The notes under the pieces are model-generated. The model saw nothing but the letters and a program-made list of their open reading frames with translations. It had not been told where the DNA came from and did no database searches. Of a stretch of DNA of 64,000 nt, positions 19,491 to 21,966 are shown one piece after another (the first letter of the stretch is position 1; each line of letters starts with the position of its first letter). The position numbers were made by a program, and so were the translations under genes. The stretch comes from Haloarcula laminariae (lineage in GTDB: Archaea; Halobacteriota; Halobacteria; Halobacteriales; Haloarculaceae), in the NCBI RefSeq assembly GCF_025457605.1, contig NZ_JAMZFY010000001.1, positions 1,736,001-1,800,000 of the forward strand. The letters are read 5' to 3'.

Positions 19491-20264
19491 ATGAAACGCG
19501 TCCGATTCCGCGACTCCGGCGGGAACGTCCGTGGCGGCCGCTGGGCCATCGAAGACGGCGAGCCCGTGGTCACCGCGGCCGCCGGCCCCTACGGTCGTAT
19601 CGCCTTCGGGGACGAGAGCTACGACCCCGCGGAGGTGGATATCCTCCCGCCGTGTGAACCGACGAAAATCGTCTGTCTGGGACGCAACTACGCCGACCAC
19701 GCCGACGAGATGGACTCGGAGGTACCGGACAGACCGCTGCTGTTTCTCAAAGGCCCCAACGCCGTCGCCTCCCACGGGAACACGCTGACCATGCCCGCCG
19801 GGAAGGAGCGAATCGACCACGAGGCGGAGCTGGGCGTCGTCATCGGGGAGCAGTGCAAGAACGTCACCGAGGCGGGCGCGATGGACGTCGTCGCCGGCTA
19901 CACCTGCGTCAACGACATCTCGAACCGCGACGACCAGAGGCGGGAGACGAACTGGGTCCGCGGCAAGGCCTTCGACAACGCCTGCCCCATCGGCCCGCTG
20001 GTCGCCACACCGGAACACGTTCCCGAGGACGCCACGATAGAGTGTCGCGTCAACGGCGAGACGAGACAGTCCTCGTCCCGCGAGCACCTCGTGTTCTCCG
20101 TCGAGGAGACCATCGCCGAGATTACCGAGTACATGACCCTCGAACCGGGCGATGTCATCGCCACCGGCACGCCGTCCGGTGTCGGCCCGCTCGCGGACGG
20201 CGACCGCGTCGAGGTCGAAATCGAAGGTATCGGAACCCTCGAACACGGCGTCAAGATTCCGTAA
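19491..20264 (+). CDS. Fumarylacetoacetate hydrolase family protein
   Basis: A 257-residue FAH-fold enzyme. KIVCLGRNYADHADEM, FLKGPNAVASHG, IDHEAELGVVIG (metal-binding Glu pair) and GDVIATGTPSGVG are the family signatures. Members hydrolyse or decarboxylate 2-oxo-acid ring-cleavage products, or act as acylpyruvases; the exact substrate cannot be told. The ATG at 19491 follows an AAACGCTTAT box by about 25-35 bases. It runs in the same direction as the GMC oxidoreductase, but an intervening promoter-like site suggests separate control. Confidence 0.88.
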   Translation: MKRVRFRDSGGNVRGGRWAIEDGEPVVTAAAGPYGRIAFGDESYDPAEVDILPPCEPTKIVCLGRNYADHADEMDSEVPDRPLLFLKGPNAVASHGNTLTMPAGKERIDHEAELGVVIGEQCKNVTEAGAMDVVAGYTCVNDISNRDDQRRETNWVRGKAFDNACPIGPLVATPEHVPEDATIECRVNGETRQSSSREHLVFSVEETIAEITEYMTLEPGDVIATGTPSGVGPLADGDRVEVEIEGIGTLEHGVKIP

Positions 20265-20303
20265 CCGTCGCCCGGGACCGGCCGGCGATGACAACCACTA
20301 AGT

Positions 20304-20317
20304 TTAGGCTAACCTAA
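20304..20317 (+). promoter_or_regulatory. Iron-box-like operator before the GMC oxidoreductase
   Basis: TTAGGCTAACCTAA has perfect outer half-sites (TTAGG/CCTAA) around a 4-base centre. It resembles the boxes of DtxR/SirR-type metal-dependent repressors, which haloarchaea use for iron control. It lies 12-25 bases upstream of the ATG at 20329, overlapping the expected TATA-to-start interval, so binding there should block transcription. This is an inference from sequence shape. TATA boxes in this group can also read TTTAGG, so part of the match could be promoter. Confidence 0.55.
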
Positions 20318-20328
20318 TCGGAATCAGC

Positions 20329-21966
20329 ATGCAGCGAGCCCCCACCGACCGGGCGGACGTCTGTGTCGTCGGCGCGGGCCCGGCGGGCGCCCTCGTCGCG
20401 AGCCGACTGGCGAGCGACGGGCACGACGTGACGGTGCTGGAGGCCGGCAGGCGCTTCGACTTCGAGGACCGCCAGGACCAGATGGAACAGTCGATTCGGC
20501 CCGGCGAGCGCGGGGACATTTGGGAGATGGGTGGCGAGCGCGACGACTACTCCAACAACGGCAACCGGACCTATCCGCTGAACGTCTCCCGCGTGAAGGG
20601 TGTCGGAGGGTCGACGCTCCACTGGCAGGGGATGGTGATGCGGATGCACCCCGCCGACTTCGCCGGCGACCACGACAACGACGACCCGGCCTGGCCCATC
20701 AGCTACGACGACCTGCGGCCCTACTACGCGGAGGCCGAACGGGCGCTGGGCGTGGCCGGCGTCGCCGAGGACAACCCCTTCGCGCCGGCCCGGGACGGCC
20801 CCTACCCCATGCCCGGCTTCCCGCCCTCCTACAGCGACTCGCTGTTCGCCGAGGCCTGCGCGAACCTCGGCATCACGCTGCACTCGGTACCCAACGCCCG
20901 TAACTCCGAATCCTACGACGGCCGGGGCCAGTGTGTGGGCTATGGTACCTGCCAGCCGGTCTGTCCCTCGGGGGCGAAATACGACGCGACGGTCCACATC
21001 GAGGACGCCGAGGCTGCGGGCGCGACCGTCATCGACCGCGTCCCGGTCCAGCGACTCGAAACCGACGCCGACGACCGGATTAGCGCCGCCGTCTACGTCA
21101 CCCCGGACGGGACGGAACACCGGCAGGAGGCCCGGGAGTTCGTCCTCGCGGCGGGCGGCGTCGAGATACCGCGCCTCCTCCTGCTGTCGGCCGACGAGGA
21201 CCACCCCGACGGGCTGGCTAACTCCTCGGGTGCCGTCGGCCGGTACTTCATGGACCACCTCTTCGCCGGTTCGGGCGGAACCCTCGACCGCGAGACGCGC
21301 CAGAACCACGTCGGCTTCATCACCAGCGAGAGCCACCAGTTCTACGACGACCCGGGCGGCGCCATACAGCACGCCGGCACCGGGGAGACGGTCGTCGCCG
21401 AGAGCGACGACGCTTACTCGCCCATCAAACTGGAGTTCCTGAACTACGCCGGACCGTCGCCGGTCGAAATCGCGCTCAACGGCGACGACTGGGGCGACCC
21501 GATGCTCGACGAGGTTCGGGACGCCTACGGCAACAGCATCGCGATGGGCGGGCTGGTCGGCCAGCCGCCCCGGTGGGAGAACCGCGTCACGCTCGACCCC
21601 AGAGTCACCGACGACCACGGCAACCCCGTCCCGGACATCCGGTGGTCGTGGGGCGACCGGGTGCGCCGCTCCATCTCGCGGGCCAACGCCATCCAGCACG
21701 CGGTGCTGGACGAACTGGGCGCCGACATCGCCTGGACCGCGAACGTCGACGGCGGCTCCGGGCCCGCCTACCACCACATGGGGACGACGCGGATGGGCAC
21801 CGACCCCGACGAGAGCGTCGTGAACCCACAGCTCCGGAGTCACGACCACTCGAACCTCTCGATTGCCTCCTCGTCAGTGTTCGTGACGGCGGGGTCGATG
21901 AACCCCACGCTCACCATCGCCGCGCTGGCGCTGAAATGCGCAGCCCACCTCGGCGAGCGGCTGTAG
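20329..21966 (+). CDS. GMC family oxidoreductase with a likely Fe-S cysteine set
   Basis: A 545-residue FAD enzyme. The ADP-binding loop is VCVVGAGPAGA, with KGVGGSTLHWQG in the flavin attachment region and a C-terminal GTTRMG plus GSMNPTLTIAALAL. It resembles the large subunit of membrane gluconate- or glucose-dehydrogenase-type GMC enzymes. C202-x5-C208-x3-C212 has the spacing of the [3Fe-4S] cysteines of bacterial FAD-glucose dehydrogenase. No small (subunit 3) or cytochrome subunit gene is adjacent, so its electron acceptor is unknown. No Tat signal is visible; in relatives the small subunit carries it. Confidence 0.85.
   Translation: MQRAPTDRADVCVVGAGPAGALVASRLASDGHDVTVLEAGRRFDFEDRQDQMEQSIRPGERGDIWEMGGERDDYSNNGNRTYPLNVSRVKGVGGSTLHWQGMVMRMHPADFAGDHDNDDPAWPISYDDLRPYYAEAERALGVAGVAEDNPFAPARDGPYPMPGFPPSYSDSLFAEACANLGITLHSVPNARNSESYDGRGQCVGYGTCQPVCPSGAKYDATVHIEDAEAAGATVIDRVPVQRLETDADDRISAAVYVTPDGTEHRQEAREFVLAAGGVEIPRLLLLSADEDHPDGLANSSGAVGRYFMDHLFAGSGGTLDRETRQNHVGFITSESHQFYDDPGGAIQHAGTGETVVAESDDAYSPIKLEFLNYAGPSPVEIALNGDDWGDPMLDEVRDAYGNSIAMGGLVGQPPRWENRVTLDPRVTDDHGNPVPDIRWSWGDRVRRSISRANAIQHAVLDELGADIAWTANVDGGSGPAYHHMGTTRMGTDPDESVVNPQLRSHDHSNLSIASSSVFVTAGSMNPTLTIAALALKCAAHLGERL

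Follow-up and report, generated by a model that had tools for sequence, protein, structure and literature searches.

The DNA analysed here is a stretch of 64,000 nucleotides of the Haloarcula laminariae genome (hereafter the window), which contains a gene for a GMC oxidoreductase preceded by a short palindrome and a putative promoter element. The locus comprises the following features:

19491..20264, + strand: FAA-hydrolase-family gene (Pfam FAA_hydrolase), upstream neighbour of the GMC gene, from which it is separated by a gap of 64 nt
20292..20303, + strand: CAACCACTAAGT, putative BRE/TATA-like promoter element, immediately upstream of the box
20304..20317, + strand: TTAGGCTAACCTAA, operator of the iron-box type, a TTAGG-N4-CCTAA palindrome (exact match; position conserved in relatives)
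20329..21966, + strand: GMC oxidoreductase of 545 aa, catalytic (large) subunit of a DET-type FAD/[3Fe-4S] dehydrogenase, as judged by Pfam (GMC_oxred_N and GMC_oxred_C), PDB relatives and a fold search
20932..20964, + strand: C202-x5-C208-x3-C212, predicted [3Fe-4S] ligands, aligned one-to-one with Cys212/Cys218/Cys222 of the Burkholderia cepacia glucose dehydrogenase (GDH)
21772..21774, + strand: codon of H482, the catalytic His, counterpart of B. cepacia GDH His476 (alignment)
21901..21903, + strand: codon of N525, the catalytic Asn, counterpart of B. cepacia GDH Asn519 (alignment)

An iron-box-like operator over the start-proximal promoter of the GMC gene had been claimed in the original prediction, and this arrangement was confirmed: TTAGGCTAACCTAA lies exactly at 20304-20317 and ends 11 nt before the ATG codon (20329), while the stop codon ends at 21966. 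The FAA-hydrolase-family gene is probably not part of the GMC system, and we treat it as context; a member of this family was found in 23 of 81 compared loci.

Assignment of the enzyme to the GMC superfamily is based on Pfam scores above the cut-off and on the invariance of the catalytic residues. Among proteins of solved structure, the closest to it are glucose dehydrogenase (E about 3e-85) and the large subunits of fructose dehydrogenase. A profile search gave E-values of 1.2e-109 for B. cepacia glucose dehydrogenase and about 1e-101 for Gluconobacter fructose dehydrogenase, and in a fold search performed with the predicted model the B. cepacia glucose and Gluconobacter japonicus fructose dehydrogenases filled the first nine places. 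The report on B. cepacia GDH (PMC6719666) names Cys212, Cys218 and Cys222 as the ligands of the [3Fe-4S] cluster and His476/Asn519 as the catalytic pair. The corresponding residues of the window protein (C202, C208, C212, H482 and N525) are invariant in 37/37 aligned sequences, a set obtained by sampling every third of 108 proteins and adding the window sequence. The proposal that the C202-x5-C208-x3-C212 spacing fits a [3Fe-4S] cluster is upheld by the x5/x3 spacing itself, by the alignment with the GDH ligands and by the identity of the closest solved relatives. Its Cys spacing and these relatives place the enzyme among the DET-type [3Fe-4S] GMC dehydrogenases, and it very likely needs iron. 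The predicted model is poor around the cluster loop (confidence below 50 for residues 189-216) and is therefore no evidence for the cluster. Asn474 and Asn475 of GDH, placed near the sugar according to the same report (PMC6719666), correspond to Ala480 and Tyr481 here, so that the substrate probably differs and glucose is unlikely. Neither a multihaem cytochrome c beta subunit nor any other electron-accepting subunit was seen among the scanned neighbours.

Leaderless transcripts are known in haloarchaea. Taking into account this general knowledge and the distance to the start codon, we assigned CAACCACTAAGT as a putative BRE/TATA element. At such a distance the box and the TATA region of a leaderless transcript would coincide in part, and a bound repressor would thus block the access of transcription factors. 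Comparison of 29 different promoters of stand-alone GMC genes (window included) revealed strong conservation of the consensus CAACgC.TAAgTTTAGG, in which the CAAC-N3-TAAGT segment upstream of the box is likewise conserved. The segment 20299-20317 agrees, by our reading, at 17 of 19 positions with the 19-bp DtxR consensus. Description of the element as a full 19-bp DtxR site was dropped, since the relatives conserve the 14-bp TTAGG-N4-CCTAA with a TAAG flank; for this reason the 14-bp form is used here.

The same palindrome recurs throughout the H. laminariae genome (3.69 Mb), in which TTAGGN4CCTAA has 17 exact sites compared with 0.99 expected from base composition, and its strict form TTAGGNTNNCCTAA occurs at nine distinct sites compared with none for the reversed pattern. 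When one mismatch was allowed there was no excess (30 per strand vs 36 for the reversed control); the signal therefore rests in the exact sites, and only these were used. We grouped the 17 exact boxes into 13 promoters. Behind them lie five genes for Peripla_BP_2 proteins, fbpA, an RGP-like gene, the GMC gene, and genes for a DtxR-family regulator, an HVO_A0261-type regulator and a lipoprotein with DUF5059 and plastocyanin domains; two promoters have no clear gene. Genes for iron-type substrate-binding proteins are thus found downstream of 6 of the 13 box promoters. The Peripla_BP_2 genes behind boxes represent 5/9 of all such genes in the genome (hypergeometric probability 2.8e-11, with 3700 genes assumed); according to our start calls the box is 183 and 230 nt away from two of them and nearer to the others. 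An FecCD operon also lies behind a box. The genome contains five strong matches to PF01325 (Fe_dep_repress), i.e. DtxR-family regulators, and a palindromic box common to iron uptake promoters, the two elements expected of an iron regulon of the DtxR type. The sequence comparisons support the view that TTAGGCTAACCTAA is a conserved member of this family of iron-type boxes.

Several other boxes of this genome deserve mention in their own right (G000 below stands for this genome, and L numbers for extracted loci). One of them (G000:C1:1200884-1200897; L168:3885) is located 115 nt upstream of the DtxR-family regulator gene L168:4000-4467 (155 aa), an arrangement that would fit autoregulation. Two exact boxes (G000:C1:1239896-1239945; L102:5897-5946) immediately precede L102:5952-8423, which encodes the Tat-type lipoprotein with DUF5059 and plastocyanin domains; it is possible that this protein is a copper electron acceptor or an EfeO-like iron protein under common box control. 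Another box (G000:C1:1489444-1489457; L103:5445) lies 28 nt before the gene of the HVO_A0261-type helix-turn-helix regulator (L103:5473-6339), beside a siderophore-type uptake operon. Exact boxes are also found at G000:C1:621269-621282 and G000:C1:1591007-1591020. Each has a further box with one mismatch at a distance of about 30 nt, and no obvious iron gene follows either of them; most of the nearest called ORFs are very small.

In most of the relatives (best 80 of 590) the GMC gene is the second gene of a pair, the first of which encodes a small protein starting much like MELTRRDALAALA. The box of these paired loci is situated about 21-25 nt upstream of the first (small-subunit) gene and not directly before the GMC gene, whereas the kin of the window have a stand-alone GMC gene with the box directly upstream of it. 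The 24 stand-alone loci of other genomes of the family (117,724 bases) contain 23 exact boxes, all of them directly before a GMC gene (23/24 loci) and none elsewhere, and each of 29 shuffled half-site palindromes had 0 matches in the same sequences. With the window included, 24 of the 25 stand-alone GMC genes of the family genomes are preceded by an exact box; the distance from the start of the box to the first in-frame start codon is 23-25 nt in 18 of the 23 stand-alone loci with an exact box. When 36 further loci were added to the 80 (116 in total, four of which duplicate another locus), an exact box was found within 160 nt of the first gene in 98, and in 84 of these 98 at 18-27 nt.

The 18 loci without an exact box are heterogeneous. 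Four of them (L155, L157, L158 and L159) lie inside a longer run of iron genes, in L066 the contig begins inside the gene of the small subunit, and L068 was counted here through a wrong start call, its exact box being in fact 22 nt before that gene. L165 and L156 are repeats of L067 and L059. A one-mismatch box is all that is present in the stand-alone loci L143 and L026 and in the pairs L031, L039, L060, L075 and L067. No box within one mismatch was found in the pairs L033 and L059 (and hence L156, the same locus), and none in the 264 nt covered of the stand-alone locus L038. An exact box between the GMC gene and the gene corresponding to GT2 (see below) is also present in several loci of Halorubrum and Natrinema.

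Could the palindrome in front of the window GMC gene be a functionless product of chance? The lack of a genome-wide excess with one mismatch allowed would agree with such an origin, but 17 exact sites were found where 0.99 were expected, the box recurs at 23/24 stand-alone and 98/116 loci, the spacing is narrow, and the 118 kb of stand-alone loci contain no further exact box. A chance site is hardly credible under these circumstances, and we rejected it.

The small protein encoded by the first gene of the pairs corresponds to the gamma subunit of DET-type dehydrogenases. The H. laminariae genome has two genes of the Gluconate_2-dh3 family (PF13618), neither of them in the window; a PF13618 gene was likewise found in the genome of Haloferax volcanii, used as a control. 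One is an orphan, located at about G000:C1:1572690-1573229, 183 kb from the window GMC gene (40.1 bits vs a cut-off of 23.4). The N-terminus of its product, MTELDRRDVLKALG, is twin-arginine-like, as expected of the gamma (hitchhiker) subunit of a DET-type dehydrogenase, and export is predicted. The orphan gamma and the gammas encoded directly before GMC genes in relatives form one sequence family, and 43 of 44 gammas belong to Pfam Gluconate_2-dh3. No solved relative was found for the gamma model by fold at E 0.001, and none of note for the gamma profile by sequence. The gammas of our alignment A1 were picked with a twin-arginine filter, so that the invariance of both arginines in it is no evidence.

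The orphan gamma gene is part of a larger cluster, in which the order is GT2, gamma, membrane glycosyltransferase, ABC ATPase, double-domain permease, substrate-binding protein, box, RGP-like gene, box; in reverse reading this is RGP-fbpA-fbpB-fbpC-membrane glycosyltransferase-gamma-GT2. The best PDB match of FbpA is a ferric-binding protein (E 5.7e-55), and the motif N-[HNR]-Y-Y (N-x-Y-Y) is present in 58/58 FbpA proteins longer than 330 aa. The cluster thus contains the elements of an Fbp-type ferric uptake system, i.e. a ferric-binding protein with the tyrosine pair, a permease and an ATPase. Of the accompanying proteins, GT2 is similar to dolichol-phosphate mannose synthase and the RGP-like protein to sugar mutases and transferases (in the PDB the latter matches chains named only 'Transglycosylse' and, weakly, UDP-arabinopyranose mutase); no PDB relative was found for the membrane glycosyltransferase. 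There is no box directly before the orphan gamma gene. Since this gene lacks its own box and lies downstream of the membrane glycosyltransferase gene, we assume that it is controlled by the boxes of the cluster. A one-mismatch box (L099:5872-5885) is also present about 47 nt before the GT2 gene of this cluster.

These observations modify the earlier statement that the usual partner subunits are not nearby. There is indeed no gamma gene in the window, but a gamma exists 183 kb away, inside an iron-box cluster of the Fbp type, and in most relatives it adjoins the GMC gene behind the box. The idea that the partner of the window GMC is missing was consequently rejected, a PF13618 gene being present elsewhere in the genome.

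The relationship between the two genes was analysed in 57 genomes of the family. The GMC gene, counted as the same gene at an identity of at least 59% (a cut-off of our own choice), is present in 50 of them, the gamma gene in the same 50, and seven have neither; four of these seven contain distant GMC matches (G004, E 8.6e-9; G019, 2.0e-4; G044, 2.0e-10; G056, 3.4e-5). The two genes are non-adjacent in 24 genomes, which yield 25 non-adjacent gammas because G049 has both states, and all 25 are located inside the RGP-fbp-glycosyltransferase cluster. Four genomes carry the genes for RGP, FbpABC, the membrane glycosyltransferase, gamma and GMC in succession on one strand, and there gamma-GMC has no box of its own. 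Among ten named genomes probed, the RGP gene was found in all ten, and seven of the ten clusters were read. The six from genomes with the pair elsewhere (including Halobacterium salinarum and Haloferax sulfurifontis) contain no gamma gene; as our gene calls come from a codon-usage script, with some wrong starts and small genes possibly missed, this absence was checked by tblastn. In the seventh, from Haloarcula amylolytica, which has a stand-alone GMC gene, gamma is present in the cluster. The gamma gene thus occupies one of two iron-box places.

These distributions bear on the alternative of a stand-alone GMC protein that lost its partner and functions as a soluble dehydrogenase in the cytoplasm, the box tying a metabolic enzyme to the iron supply and the orphan gamma serving another enzyme. 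The GMC gene does stand alone, its product has no obvious N-terminal signal peptide by eye, and another contig of the genome carries a second GMC-gamma pair (G000:C2:634869-637069), whose GMC is 51% identical to that of the window. This pair, however, includes a gamma of its own, 41% identical to the orphan, and so does not need the orphan one, and there is no box within one mismatch in the surrounding 15 kb (L100); on these two grounds assignment of the orphan gamma to the second pair was dropped. The cytoplasmic reading is also opposed by the membership of the orphan gamma in one sequence family with the gammas encoded directly before GMC genes, by the retention of both a stand-alone GMC and a non-adjacent gamma gene in 25 genomes, and by the absence of both from the same 7 of 57; we regard it as improbable. 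The comparison shows instead, at the level of gene content, that GMC and gamma are kept as a set even when they are unlinked.

Retention of the cluster itself follows a looser pattern. Over the 57 genomes, 49 have both RGP and GMC, five RGP only, one GMC only and two neither, by itself a weak association. The five genomes that have kept the RGP gene without GMC and gamma (G004, G019, G031, G044 and G056) belong to one genus, and G036 has a GMC-gamma pair without RGP, which indicates that the cluster can do without the dehydrogenase. The former five constitute a natural test of what the dehydrogenase adds. Taken together, the genome comparison shows that GMC, gamma and the Fbp/glycosyltransferase cluster carry the same kind of iron-type box and have for the most part been retained as a set. 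On a tree of 113 GMC proteins and an outgroup, constructed with a quick method on which gain and loss are not distinguishable, the stand-alone state requires six changes, at least four of which are forced by well-supported branches.

Iron control of an iron-dependent flavoenzyme had been put forward in the original prediction. Both of its components, the iron-type box and membership in the [3Fe-4S] subfamily, have stood, but the sign of the control is probably the reverse, since the same box precedes uptake genes needed when iron is scarce. The simplest reading of its presence before ferric and siderophore uptake genes is that the iron enzyme is made in iron shortage. In the circuit envisaged at first, a regulator acting on a real box would activate the gene at plentiful iron, so that the cluster can be filled. 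This would suit an enzyme very likely to need iron, and DtxR-family regulators of haloarchaea may have complex roles. The box, however, also fronts genes for iron-type substrate-binding proteins and FbpA as well as the FecCD operon, which should rise in iron shortage. Moreover, in the four genomes in which gamma-GMC without its own box forms one run with fbpABC behind the boxes of the cluster, the dehydrogenase should follow the same sign as the transporter. Activation by plentiful iron is therefore unlikely in our estimation.

A further possibility is that the box is a DtxR-family operator answering to manganese, another metal or a different signal, with an indirect link to iron. The DtxR family includes manganese sensors, and the five strong Fe_dep_repress matches could divide the sites among them; the targets in this genome, however, are largely of the ferric and siderophore uptake types, and we give this reading little credence.

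The location of the box before the GMC gene and of its partner inside an iron-uptake cluster suggests that the enzyme helps the cell to gather iron. From these comparative data we consider it probable that the GMC protein is the catalytic subunit of an exported FAD/[3Fe-4S] dehydrogenase belonging to the haloarchaeal iron-starvation regulon, with gamma as its partner and a role in ferric capture. Most likely it represents a relocated catalytic subunit of a ferric-uptake regulon dehydrogenase that would be derepressed by iron shortage. A DtxR-family repressor loaded with Fe(II) would occupy the box overlapping the TATA region of the leaderless promoter and shut the GMC gene off at plentiful iron, while in iron shortage GMC would be produced together with gamma. 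The two proteins might then cross the membrane through the Tat pathway, folded as a complex, and oxidise a sugar or glycan at the cell surface. Such oxidation could aid the capture of Fe(III) by FbpA in either of two ways: the oxidised sugars may serve as ligands for Fe(III), or electrons may pass via the [3Fe-4S] cluster to Fe(III).

The glycosyltransferases of the cluster suggest that the sugar is a product of the same cluster. A fuller but distinctly tentative scheme would be that the RGP-like, GT2 and membrane glycosyltransferase proteins put a sugar on the outer surface in iron shortage, that Tat-exported GMC-gamma oxidises it (to an Fe(III)-binding keto sugar or sugar acid, or with Fe(III) as acceptor), and that FbpABC imports the iron. 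This would be an iron-gathering system of an undescribed kind, in which the two dehydrogenase subunits have been repeatedly redistributed between two iron-box loci and have stayed under common control. If it is true, an iron-sulfur enzyme is the price that the cell pays for obtaining iron.

Haloarchaea are known to have siderophores and iron ABC transporters. An iron regulon that also includes a dehydrogenase and glycosyltransferases would indicate that the chemistry of surface sugars has a part in iron capture. The enzyme is also a clear case of two subunits whose genes were separated on several occasions with retention of a common control site, and a useful test of how regulation survives the splitting of an operon. 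Halobacterium salinarum and a Haloferax species have the pair, its box and the cluster, and the proposals are thus testable in organisms with genetics.

Among the literature matches listed, no paper links such a GMC dehydrogenase to a haloarchaeal iron regulon. According to a paper on Haloferax volcanii (PMC11349517), the siderophore uptake genes of this species carry a regulon signal described by Leyn and Rodionov (2015). Neither GMC nor oxidoreductase occurs as a word in the main text of the paper on the iron-starvation proteome of Hfx. volcanii.

Three known systems can be recognised in the arrangement described here. The first is represented by the B. cepacia FAD glucose dehydrogenase (alpha-gamma-beta, DET type) and the Gluconobacter fructose dehydrogenase, with which the window enzyme has in common the catalytic fold and sequence, the [3Fe-4S] Cys spacing, the His/Asn pair and a small twin-arginine partner. 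It differs from B. cepacia GDH in the replacement of Asn474/Asn475 by Ala480/Tyr481, in the presence of Val203 in place of Cys213, which forms the inter-subunit disulfide, and in that no multihaem beta subunit was seen near the gene. In contrast to both bacterial enzymes, the haloarchaeal gamma belongs to Pfam Gluconate_2-dh3, with no solved relative found, and the window GMC gene is split from gamma and placed under an iron-type box. The second system comprises the iron regulons of the DtxR/IdeR family (haloarchaeal Idr, SirR), in which a TTAGG...CCTAA palindrome likewise precedes iron uptake genes; H. laminariae has genes of the DtxR family, one with a box upstream. Unlike the 19-bp DtxR site, the element found here, TTAGG-N4-CCTAA, is a 14-bp form with one inner palindrome. 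The third is the FbpABC/HitABC group of ferric-iron ABC transporters, with the same class of ferric-binding protein carrying N-x-Y-Y, a double-domain permease and an ATPase with a TOBE domain. To this core the haloarchaeal cluster adds RGP-like, GT2 and membrane glycosyltransferase genes, together with the gamma subunit of a dehydrogenase.
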